64,000 nucleotides of DNA from Hyphomicrobiales bacterium (lineage in GTDB: Bacteria; Pseudomonadota; Alphaproteobacteria; Rhizobiales; Xanthobacteraceae). Below, piece by piece: positions 7,755 to 10,705 of this stretch (its first letter is position 1; each line of letters opens with the position of its first letter). The DNA is taken from NCBI GenBank assembly GCA_003169835.1, contig PNAI01000016.1:62001-126000 (forward strand). The letters are read 5' to 3'. Below the pieces are notes generated by a model. That model did not search any database, was not told where the DNA came from, and saw nothing but the letters and a program-made list of their open reading frames with translations. The position numbers and the translations under genes are program-made.

Positions 7755-8900
7755 TCAGCGCTTGGGCAGCACGCGTCCGGGGCTGATCTCGAAGACTTCC
7801 GCGCGATCTGCGATCTCGGCGAAGGCTAAAGGATCCGCGCCGGTCATCCAGACCTGCGCGCCGAGGCGTTCAAGCGCCTCATAGAGCGCGCTGCGCCGCG
7901 CCGGATCGAGATGGGCCACGATCTCGTCAAGCAGCAGCAGCGGCGAGGATCCGGTCATCTCGGCAATCAGCCCGGCATGGGCGAGCACAAGTCCGATGAG
8001 CAATGCCTTCTGCTCGCCGGTCGAGGCGTCGGAAGCCGGGATGTTCTTAGGCGCGTAGGTGACCGCGAGGTCGGTCAGATGCGGGCCGACGGTAGTGCGG
8101 CCGGCGGCGGCATCGCGGGAGCGGTTGTCTCGGAGCACAGCGCGGTAGCGATCCTCGATCTCGCTCGCCGGATGATCCGGCAGCAGGCGCTCGATCCAGC
8201 CGTCGAGCGCAATCTCGGCTGCGGGAAATACGCTGTCCTTACGGGCGGCGAGCGCGCCTTGCAGGCGGCGCACGGTCTCCGCGCGCAAGGCTGAGACCGC
8301 CACGCCAAGCTCGGCGGTTTCGTGCTCGATGGCATCGAGCCAGTGCAGGTCGGGGCGCGGCTCCTCCAGCAGGCGATTGCGCGAGCGCAAGGCACGCTCC
8401 AGCGCATTGACGCGGCCGGGATGCTCGGCGTCGACGGCAAGTACCAGACGGTCCAGGAAACGGCGGCGCTCGGAGGCGGGGCCGGAAAAAAGCTGGTCCA
8501 TCGCGGGCGTGAGCCACACGACACGCAGGTGATCGGCAAATGCCGCAGCCGAGGTGACCGGCTCGCGGTCGATCCGGCATTTGCGCGCGGGCGTTATGTC
8601 GGCTGTGGGCGGTTCGATACCGGTGCCCAGTGTGACGAGGCCGAGCATGCCTTCGATTTCGGCGGATACGGCCCAAGAAACGTCAGACGCGCCGTCGCAT
8701 TCGCTGAAGGCAATCTCTTCGAAGGTGGCGCGGCGCAAGCCGCGACCCGGCATCAGCAGCGAGATAGCTTCGATGAGATTGGTCTTGCCGGCGCCGTTCG
8801 GTCCGACGAGGAGAACGAGATTGCCCGACACGTCTAAGCTCGCCGCGTGGTAGCTGCGGAAATTGGTCAGGCTGAGATGGTGGATCGCGGCGGCGGTCAT
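7755..8900 (-). CDS. recF: DNA replication/repair protein RecF
   Basis: RecF is an SMC-like ATPase that loads RecA at gaps and stalled forks with RecO and RecR. The 381-residue product has Walker A GPNGAGKTN near residue 34, the signature STGEQKALLIGL, and Walker B LLLLDEIVAHLD, in the correct order. The ATG at 8900 (MTAAAIHHLSLTNFRSY) matches the usual family start. In most relatives it directly follows dnaN; here a repeat-flanked DUF559 gene separates them. Confidence 0.95.
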   Translation of the reverse strand: MTAAAIHHLSLTNFRSYHAASLDVSGNLVLLVGPNGAGKTNLIEAISLLMPGRGLRRATFEEIAFSECDGASDVSWAVSAEIEGMLGLVTLGTGIEPPTADITPARKCRIDREPVTSAAAFADHLRVVWLTPAMDQLFSGPASERRRFLDRLVLAVDAEHPGRVNALERALRSRNRLLEEPRPDLHWLDAIEHETAELGVAVSALRAETVRRLQGALAARKDSVFPAAEIALDGWIERLLPDHPASEIEDRYRAVLRDNRSRDAAAGRTTVGPHLTDLAVTYAPKNIPASDASTGEQKALLIGLVLAHAGLIAEMTGSSPLLLLDEIVAHLDPARRSALYEALERLGAQVWMTGADPLAFAEIADRAEVFEISPGRVLPKR

Positions 8901-8930
8901 TGCGGTACCCGGGCAGCGGGTCGCAGCTCC

Positions 8931-8987
8931 TTACCCTCTCCCCTTGTGGGAGAGGATGGCGCGCGAAGCGCGCCGGGTGAGGGGTCA
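8931..8987. repeat. left inverted repeat flanking DUF559 gene
   Basis: A 57-base element with two stem-loops: CCCTCTCCC/GGGAGAGG around a short loop, and GGCGCGC-GAA-GCGCGCC. It ends GGGTGAGGGGTCA. The last three bases, TCA, are the complement of the TGA stop of the DUF559 gene. The reverse complement of the element at 9359-9418 matches it in both outer arms, with one mismatch in the first arm and a different but still self-complementary central stem. Confidence 0.9.
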
Positions 8988-9359
8988 ACGATCGTCAGGA
9001 TTGAGACGCGCGAATAGGTCTTCAAGAATTGCTTTTGGCTGCTTGAGGACATCGTTGTTCCAGTAACGCAGGACGCGAAAGCCTTCTTGTTGCCTCAAGA
9101 CGGCATCGCGTATCTTGTCGCGTAGCGATGAAGCGTGTTGGCCGCCATCGATTTCAACGACGAGCCGTTGGTCGAAGCATACGAAGTCCAAGATATAGCT
9201 TCGAAAGGGTACTTGCCGACGAAATTTATGAGCTGCTAACCGCCAGTCACGTAACAATAGCCACATGGCGCTTTCGGCATCGGTTGGTCCACGCCGCATG
9301 CGCTTCGCGTGCTTTAGACCCAGACGATTGACTGGACGATGATGTGCGCTGATGGGCAT
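8985..9359 (-). CDS. DUF559 endonuclease-domain protein (Vsr-like fold)
   Basis: A 124-residue protein of the DUF559 family, related to very-short-patch-repair and restriction-endonuclease-like folds. Visible are RRGPTDAESAMWLLLRDWRL, FRRQVPFRSYILDFVCFDQRL, VVEIDGGQH (probable metal-binding acidic core with the upstream D/E) and GFRVLRYWNNDVL. Nuclease activity is inferred from the fold only. The gene fills the space between two inverted repeats exactly. The upstream repeat supplies the AGGGG Shine-Dalgarno, with TC before the ATG, and the downstream repeat supplies the TGA stop. It sits between dnaN and recF in the same orientation. Cargo or driver of a small mobile unit is my inference. Confidence 0.85.
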   Translation of the reverse strand: MPISAHHRPVNRLGLKHAKRMRRGPTDAESAMWLLLRDWRLAAHKFRRQVPFRSYILDFVCFDQRLVVEIDGGQHASSLRDKIRDAVLRQQEGFRVLRYWNNDVLKQPKAILEDLFARLNPDDR

Positions 9360-9418
9360 GACCCCTCACCCGGCTCGACCTTCGGTCGAGCCACCCTCTC
9401 CCACAAGGGGAGAGGGTA
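9359..9418. repeat. right inverted repeat flanking DUF559 gene
   Basis: A 60-base element, inverted copy of 8931-8987. It reads TGACCCCTCACCC, then the stem GGCTCGACC-TTC-GGTCGAGCC, then CCCTCTCCC/GGGAGAGGG and TAA. The central stem differs from the left copy (GGCGCGC) but remains perfectly paired, so the structure rather than the bases is kept. On the minus strand it forms the 5' leader and ribosome-binding site of the DUF559 gene. Confidence 0.9.
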
Positions 9419-9456
9419 AGAGGCAGCTGTCGCCAGGTAAACGGCCTACACCCGCA

Positions 9457-10575
9457 TTACACTCTCATGGGCATCAGCACATAAAGCGCGCCGTTGGATT
9501 CCTTGTCTTGGATCAGCGTGGGCGAGCCCGGATCGGCGAGCTTGAGGAGCGCCACTTCGCCGTCGAGCTGGGCGGCGATGTCGAGCAGGTAGCGCGAATT
9601 AAATCCGATGTCGATCGGATCGGAGCCGTACTCGACTTCGAGCTCCTCGGTCGCACTGCCGGAATCCGGATTGGTGACGGACAGCACAAGCCGGCCGCCG
9701 GTGAGCGAGAGTTTTACCGCGCGTCCGCGTTCGCTCGAGACCGTCGATACGCGATCGACGGCGGCTTCGAAGTCCTTCTTGGTGACCGTGAGTTCCTTGT
9801 CGTTGCCGGTCGGAATCACGCGCGCGTAGTCGGGAAACGTGCCGTCGATCAGCTTGGAAGTGAGCACCACATCGCCGACATTGAAGCGGATTTTCGCCTG
9901 CGAGAGCTGGATTTCGATTTCCGCCTCGCTGTCCTCGATCAGGCGCTGCACTTCGCCGACGGTTTTGCGCGGGATGATGACGCCGGGCATGGAGGCGGCA
10001 CCTGAGGGAAGCGCAAGCTCGAACTGCGCCAAGCGATGGCCGTCGGTTGCAACCGCACGCAGCCTTGCCGATTTGCCGGTGCCTGCCGTGTGCAGATAGA
10101 TGCCGTTGAGGTAGTAGCGCGTCTCTTCCGTAGAAATCGCAAACTGGGTCTTGTCGATCAGGCGCTTGAGATCGGCCGCGGGAAGCTTGAACTTGTGGGT
10201 CATGTCGCCGGCGGCGAGATCGGGAAAATCGCTCTCCGGCAGCGTCTGGAGCGTAAAACGCGAACGGCCGGCGCGGATCGAGAGCACGGCGCGGTCGCCT
10301 GAGGCCTCGAGCACGACCTGCGAGCCTTCCGGCAGCTTGCGCACGATCTCGTAGAACATATGCGCCGGCACCGTGGTCGCCCCGCCGGGAGAGACTTCGG
10401 CTGCGACGGTTTCGATGACTTCGAGGTCGAGGTCGGTGGCCTTGAGGTGGAGCGCCGATTTCTCCGCCCGCACGAGCACGTTGGCAAGAATGGGAATCGT
10501 GTTCCGGCGCTCGACCACACGATGCATGTGGGAGAGCGATTTCAGCAGCTCTGCGCGCTCGACGGTGACCTTCAT
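9457..10575 (-). CDS. dnaN: DNA polymerase III beta sliding clamp
   Basis: The 372-residue product is the ring-shaped processivity clamp. The family start MKVTVERAELLKSL is at 10575; the track start at 10608 is an upstream TTG. Typical features are RRNTIPILANVLV, DLDLEV, FYEIVRKLP, TRYYLNGIYLH, TDGHRLA and the C-terminal cleft segment ending YVLMPMRV. It lies 171 bases downstream of dnaA with a strong hairpin in the gap, and is followed by the repeat-flanked DUF559 gene. Confidence 0.96.
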   Translation of the reverse strand: MKVTVERAELLKSLSHMHRVVERRNTIPILANVLVRAEKSALHLKATDLDLEVIETVAAEVSPGGATTVPAHMFYEIVRKLPEGSQVVLEASGDRAVLSIRAGRSRFTLQTLPESDFPDLAAGDMTHKFKLPAADLKRLIDKTQFAISTEETRYYLNGIYLHTAGTGKSARLRAVATDGHRLAQFELALPSGAASMPGVIIPRKTVGEVQRLIEDSEAEIEIQLSQAKIRFNVGDVVLTSKLIDGTFPDYARVIPTGNDKELTVTKKDFEAAVDRVSTVSSERGRAVKLSLTGGRLVLSVTNPDSGSATEELEVEYGSDPIDIGFNSRYLLDIAAQLDGEVALLKLADPGSPTLIQDKESNGALYVLMPMRV

Positions 10576-10705
10576 GCGGAAGCCTGCTGCGTCTGTGGCA
10601 ATGCTCAATTAAAGGGACGAGAAGGGTGGCGCGGGCACATGCGTAACGCAAGGGCGGGCGAATGGCCCGTCCCCGTTTTACCCAGCCGTTTTGTGACAGA
10701 CGCCG

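Follow-up and report, generated by a model that had tools for sequence, protein, structure and literature searches.

A DUF559 nuclease-like gene between inverted triplex-type repeats at dnaN-recF, a candidate REPIN/RAYT-like system

Multi-copy inverted doublets are a feature of the REPIN/RAYT system (TnpA-REP; PMC3116915, PMC8266576), in which a diverged, single-copy enzyme lies beside its own class of repeat and one genome may hold several enzyme-repeat pairs. The DUF559 system analysed here shares these features. In contrast, its enzyme belongs to the PF04480 nuclease family rather than to the HUH Y1 transposases (PF01797), neither of the two elements described below has a GTAG/CGTC foot, and a third triplex arm is present. 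MITEs of classical insertion sequences are likewise short, gene-less inverted-repeat elements scattered in intergenic DNA, whereas the DUF559 unit ends in triplex-type folded motifs and encodes no DDE transposase.

A second point of comparison is TM_ECO (formerly PIT), an intrastrand-triplex motif with 23 copies in E. coli K-12 and five inverted pairs (Holder et al. 2015, PMC4666352), which follows earlier TM/PIT work by Hoyne, Maher and colleagues (cited in PMC4666352). The motif is found in more than 260 genomes, and the E. coli version forms a triplex in vitro (PMC4666352). Its authors report having seen no remnant of a transposase or integrase in its vicinity and no association with mobile elements, and they state that in earlier work it had no promoter or terminator activity (PMC4666352). 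DUF559 is not mentioned in the main text of that paper. On the enzyme side, the Vsr/EDxHD nucleases (E. coli Vsr 1VSR, I-Bth0305I 3R3P, NGO0050 3HRL) resemble the protein described here in predicted fold and in their conserved acidic/histidine core; the DUF559 gene differs in standing alone between triplex elements, outside an intron or intein. For one DUF559 protein, VsrA of Caulobacter, a role in repair has been proposed that is linked to the correction of mismatches at methylated sites (PMC12907096). A link between DUF559 and these repeats was not found in the literature searched; most subscription papers and preprints lie outside that literature, and absence from it does not mean that the link is unknown.

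The unit between dnaN and recF

The window (the whole 64,000-nucleotide stretch of DNA analysed, from an assembly that is fragmented and 82.6% complete) carries a unit of about 490 bp made of an end element, a DUF559 gene and an inverted end element (Table 1). The earlier note, written from sequence alone, had claimed that a 124-residue ORF fits exactly between two inverted copies of a repeat at dnaN-recF, that the upstream copy touches the ATG and the downstream copy supplies the TGA stop, and that the unit is lodged in a replication operon without breaking it. All three claims held. The coordinates were confirmed, the last base of the upstream element is the A of the ATG, the TGA lies inside the downstream element, and both host genes are intact and run in the same direction. 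The proposed AGGGG ribosome-binding site has to be qualified, being only 2 nt from the ATG and thus close for a good site. Taking the unit out would leave about 65 bp between dnaN and recF, comparable to the shorter spacers at this junction in relatives, about half of which have 31-68 bp there. Next to the unit, no gene for a cytosine methylase was identified.

Table 1. Features of the DUF559 unit and its host genes (window positions)
Feature	Position	Strand	Evidence
DUF559 (PF04480) gene, 124 aa	8985..9359	(-)	ORF, Pfam E=5e-33
Upstream element, reading toward gene	9359..9420	(-)	Inverted-arm search, single-strand DNA fold z=-5.7
Upstream hairpin A	9417-9393		
Upstream hairpin B	9392-9372		
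Upstream third purine arm, GGGTGAGGG	9371-9363		
Downstream element, inverted	8930..8988	(+)	Inverted-arm search, single-strand DNA fold z=-4.4
Downstream hairpin A (one mismatch)	8933-8957		
Downstream hairpin B	8958-8974		
Downstream third arm	8975-8983		
Residual recF-side spacer, 29 bp	8901..8929		
Residual dnaN-side spacer, 36 bp	9421..9456		
dnaN, host gene, intact, same direction	9457..10608	(-)	ORF; matched in 60/61 genomes searched
recF, host gene, intact, same direction	7755..8900	(-)	ORF; adjoins dnaN in 28 relatives

Mechanical repeat finding returned two pairs of inverted arms, at 8923-8963/9387-9427 (88% complementary) and at 8969-8987/9359-9377 (95% complementary). Reading toward the gene, the element consists of hairpin A (CCCTCTCCC-CTTGT-GGGAGAGGG), hairpin B and the third purine arm, which touches the gene. 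Hairpin B differs in sequence between the two copies while keeping its pairing (GGCTCGACC/GGTCGAGCC versus GGCGCGC/GCGCGCC, both fully paired), as the earlier note had said of the central stems; one broken pair in the downstream hairpin A (GGGAGAGGA), a mismatch in arm 2, has to be added as a correction. The two elements fold separately, each into hairpin A plus hairpin B, and when single-stranded DNA folding was compared with dinucleotide shuffles, 0 of 200 shuffles equalled the real elements.

The general anatomy, shown over many loci, is a C-rich/G-rich hairpin, then a second hairpin or a linker of 2-3 nt, then a third G-rich arm that is the mirror of the hairpin's purine arm, a relation that a triplex requires. 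The arms of the window elements have full or near-full mirror symmetry and are compatible with G.G:C, A.A:T and T.A:T triplets. At other loci with an asymmetric arm 2, and with hairpins picked without regard to any third arm, the mirror fitted better in 71 cases and a direct copy in 14, with 53 ties; the third arm as a direct repeat or a Watson-Crick partner was outdone by the mirror relation.

These elements share with TM_ECO/PIT the arm order CCCTCNCCC - GGGNGAGGG - GGGNGAGGG, all three arms of which are present in the window, the arms themselves (CCCTCTCCC / GGGAGAGGG / GGGTGAGGG), the purine-motif mirror relation and the arrangement as inverted doublets. The 5-nt CTTGT fits the 3-6 nt first loop of that motif. 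In contrast, the second loop of TM_ECO/PIT is 3 nt long and the window departs from this, with the 18-22 nt hairpin B in its place. By their three-arm pattern the window elements are of the TM/PIT intrastrand-triplex type (PMC4666352), the triplex itself having been shown only for the E. coli motif; the repeat seen by the earlier note belongs to a known class. A systematic left/right linker asymmetry, as in the E. coli type A/B distinction, was suggestive at some loci and amounted to only a mild bias over 84 loci. Rfam gave sub-threshold matches only, with the element at 9362-9418 weakly resembling whalefall-1 (17.8 bits versus 37 needed), and some members of this metagenomic 'RNA' family might be triplex elements of DNA.

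The encoded protein retains the family-invariant residues D58, E69, D71 and H75; the residues common to 56 aligned homologues are W33, Q49, D58, F59, E69, D71, G72, H75, D81, R84, R98 and N101. An AlphaFold (AF2) model (pLDDT 87, pTM 0.80) matched 3hrl (E=4e-7), the homing endonuclease I-Bth0305I (3r3p, E=2.8e-3) and Vsr (1vsr, E=0.07) in Foldseek searches. The model thus predicts a PD-(D/E)XK/Vsr-like fold, as in enzymes that nick or cut DNA, with the core residues kept, and the nuclease-like description in the earlier note held, with the activity itself inferred. A phage origin was rejected, with two weak matches as its only support.

Facing repeats at DUF559 genes

In the source genome, all four DUF559 loci are bracketed by such elements, one of them decayed. 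The core repeat pattern occurs 30 times there in the forward form and 0 times for the reversed-pattern control, and because of this difference and the bracketing of all four loci the pattern is not due to chance. Several inverted doublets are also present in this genome. Its fourth DUF559 copy (L004, G000 C35:31346) is decaying, with an internal TAG and degenerate inverted flanks still present.

Facing elements were found at both ends of 84 of 107 standalone DUF559 loci, which had been gathered by a profile search of relatives and by protein similarity within a genome collection, in both cases without regard to flanks. The background rate (31 motifs in 392 kb) is about 0.9% per flank interval and orientation. 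The loci come from, among others, alpha-, beta-, gamma- and deltaproteobacteria, Nitrospirae, Omnitrophota, Planctomycetota, Dehalococcoidia (Chloroflexi) and Kiritimatiellae. A second profile-picked set, from one genus, had facing elements at 23 of 27 loci; in a phylum-wide HMM-picked set both ends passed the strict test at 10 of 28 loci and at least one facing element was present at 26 of 28. Some misses, such as L323, have the identical layout with different arm sequences, and at a minority of loci the gene lies next to a doublet or has an element at a single end only. As a control, a facing pair was found for 0 of 20 proteins with DUF559 fused behind an RNA-methyltransferase-like part (identified by inspection). 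For the sampled loci, bracketing is specific to standalone catalytic DUF559 and does not extend to the fused domains.

The fused form, about 400 aa long, occurs in many genomes of the family (L295-L314); its front part resembles an RNA methyltransferase and its tail resembles DUF559. It may be a domesticated DUF559, because the catalytic E-x-D motif is absent from the two fused proteins whose sequences were examined. On a cyanobacterial plasmid (Picosynechococcus pAQ6), a DUF559 gene lies amid CCCCC-hairpin-GGGGG-CTAGGGGG motifs, which follow a similar logic with another sequence and in mixed orientation.

The second loop varies over DUF559 loci, being hairpin B at some and 2-3 nt at many others. 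Within a locus the two ends are matched: left and right carry identical arms in 43% versus 9.6% after shuffling (maximum 19%), loops are identical in 27% versus 2%, and the linker type agrees in 88% versus 54%. The ends are also class-specific within a genome; the identity between paralogues is 37-64% for the most part (72% in one pair), and every paralogue has an end class of its own. Recent amplification of the DUF559 gene itself was not seen among paralogues. The copies are not recent duplicates, and because the paralogues have diverged the pattern is that of RAYT/REPIN rather than of a recently amplified insertion sequence. Since near-identical gene copies are absent, autonomous movement of the gene is rare or ancient.

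Gene and repeat also co-occur at the level of whole genomes. Among 299 Pseudomonadota genomes, 83 had a strong DUF559 match (E<1e-20), 84 had the three-arm pattern and 67 had both (odds ratio 49, p=6e-35); stratification by family gave an exact p=1.4e-15 over 11 families, the strata having been tallied by hand from tables. Apart from this stratified test, the statistics are mostly uncorrected for relatedness. The searched pattern was missing from 16 of the 83 DUF559 genomes and present in 17 of the 216 without a strong match; other element classes, or lost or missing genes, could possibly explain these discordant genomes, which has not been shown. Y1_Tnp (PF01797) had no match in the source genome (82.6% complete) and no association with the repeat over the 299 genomes (odds ratio 0.79, p=0.37), a lack of association that rules against Y1/RAYT as the mover.

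Gain, loss and gene-less doublets

No DUF559 gene was found at the dnaN-recF junction of 28 relatives in which both genes are adjacent; their spacers range from 31 to about 1000 bp. In several relatives (L164, L166, L167, L177, L180 and L185) the spacer holds other palindromes, many of the type GTCATTGCCGGGCTTGACCCGGCAATCC with an inverted partner, and the dnaN-recF spacer appears to be a hotspot of short inverted-repeat DNA.

The pheS-pheT junction gave a fuller series in the genus of G024 (80 species), where some species carry a class-1 DUF559 unit and others a different, class-2 DUF559 unit. One (L255) holds a gene-less class-2 doublet, five (L252, L253, L254, L258 and L260) retain solo end remnants, and six (L246-L250 and L259) are empty, with pheS and pheT overlapping or abutting. 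Class-1 repeats in this genus have a median of 20 copies with the pheS-pheT class-1 unit and 5 without it (p=7e-6, relatedness uncorrected). In Sphingomonas another unit lies between sufB and sufC. No empty site was found for the Sinorhizobium and Azospirillum plasmids. Neither a target-site duplication nor an exact junction was resolved at the empty sites, because the intergenic flanks diverge too fast.

Gain and loss at fixed loci, together with the association of gene and repeat, are shown; that DUF559 catalyses the mobility is inferred. The earlier note had suggested a mobile unit in which gene and repeats travel together, a reading that would have been refuted if all relatives carried the gene at this junction or if DUF559 homologues occurred without the repeats. 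Both refutations failed, on the 28 junctions and the 107 loci respectively, and what is seen at pheS-pheT, from units and doublets to remnants and empty sites, supports the suggestion; movement of the repeats by the protein is not shown.

Dispersed gene-less doublets are common, and in the genome G289 (100% complete) 17 of 18 fetched doublets are exactly 149 bp long and one is 150 bp. Two of them (L350 and L351) are identical where printed, flanks included, and may be one duplicated locus. This genome has at least three DUF559 genes, some next to doublets (L344, L345), and no Y1_Tnp match. The outer flanks of its 149-bp doublets (L346-L362) are conserved (GCGCGGGATC / GAGACGCGC), and some of these doublets are nested in a larger inverted repeat with CTGTCCGGGGAAA-type ends. 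Because of these flanks and the larger repeat, the mobile unit of G289 may possibly exceed the triplex core.

In E. coli MG1655, the DUF559 gene ycjD has fabI and sapF as its neighbours, and TM no. 9 occupies the gap on the fabI side; in a related strain, there is also an element that overlaps ycjD at its 3' end. The locus was covered in 3362 of 5395 genomes with a match and is conserved across several phylogroups (PMC12817139). It could not be used as a clean full/empty site, as the two ycjD-less strains examined have an efflux operon at fabI-sapF (PMC12817139). At hrpB-mrcB (L191, L195), the triplex doublet of K-12 is missing from one strain and replaced by a single hairpin in another; this collapse is a clean example of deletion within the doublet, between its inverted motifs. 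For the E. coli doublets, presence/absence and hairpin collapse were observed and no clean duplication.

Proposed mechanism and alternatives

We consider a REPIN/RAYT-like system built on a Vsr/EDxHD-type nuclease to be the best reading of these data, with a probability of roughly 0.7. In this reading the DUF559 protein would be a nicking endonuclease of the Vsr/EDxHD type, would recognise folded elements of its own class, each a hairpin with a G-rich third arm, and would cut at the element ends while they are single-stranded, for example on the lagging-strand template. The DNA between two inverted elements would then be excised or copied elsewhere, the moved DNA being either the DUF559 gene or, in a gene-less doublet, the short spacer. 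Binding and cutting of the element by DUF559, the triplex form as substrate and the route of insertion are all inferred, without biochemical or in vivo evidence. A bolder reading, which we can neither favour nor set aside, is that a small PD-(D/E)XK nuclease of Vsr/EDxHD type, and not an HUH or DDE enzyme, serves a widespread class of mobile DNA: it would recognise ends folded as intramolecular triple helices in single-stranded DNA and would mobilise its own gene as well as large populations of doublets without a gene, among them E. coli PIT/TM, whose origin has not been explained.

The strongest rival, which we nevertheless regard as unlikely, is a homing model: DUF559 as a homing-type endonuclease would cleave resident gene-less doublets and be copied in by recombinational repair, the doublets spreading by other means. 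In its favour, the homing endonuclease I-Bth0305I is among the closest folds, and the gene-less doublet at pheS-pheT in L255 is of the same class as the gene unit at that junction in another species. However, homing into arbitrary doublets would blur the matched ends within a unit and the paralogue-specific ends. Moreover, because repeat presence tracks DUF559 genome-wide, doublet spread would still have to be linked to DUF559 somehow.

A passenger model, in which another transposase (RAYT/Y1 or DDE) moves the triplex repeats and DUF559 is chance cargo between two of them, appears very unlikely. MITE-like doublets usually parasitise a transposase, and Y1 enzymes have been proposed as movers of similar REP doublets (PMC3116915, PMC8266576). 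Against this stand the Y1_Tnp results for the incomplete source genome and the 299 genomes, DDE families being outside that test, and the recurrence across phyla of one gene, rather than varied cargo, between the elements.

An equally improbable housekeeping model, in which DUF559 serves in repair or surveillance as a nuclease clearing triplex or mismatched DNA and is kept where repeats are common, the flanking repeats regulating expression or terminating transcription, can appeal to the Vsr-like fold, the mismatch-repair link of Caulobacter VsrA (PMC12907096) and the conserved ycjD locus (PMC12817139), but it leaves unexplained the inverted, matched, class-specific ends and the gain and loss at conserved operon junctions, and the motif lacked promoter or terminator activity in the earlier work (PMC4666352).

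The REPIN/RAYT-like reading joins two orphans, a widespread DUF nuclease family to which no role has been assigned, and a triplex repeat, conserved in hundreds of genomes, whose spread is unexplained. If true, it would constitute a second system of the REPIN/RAYT kind, one that uses another enzyme and has a non-B DNA structure as its recognition signal. It would also give a testable function to the E. coli PIT elements and ycjD and provide a small nuclease/DNA-structure pair to study, for which K-12, having both ycjD and TM repeats, is a convenient test bed.
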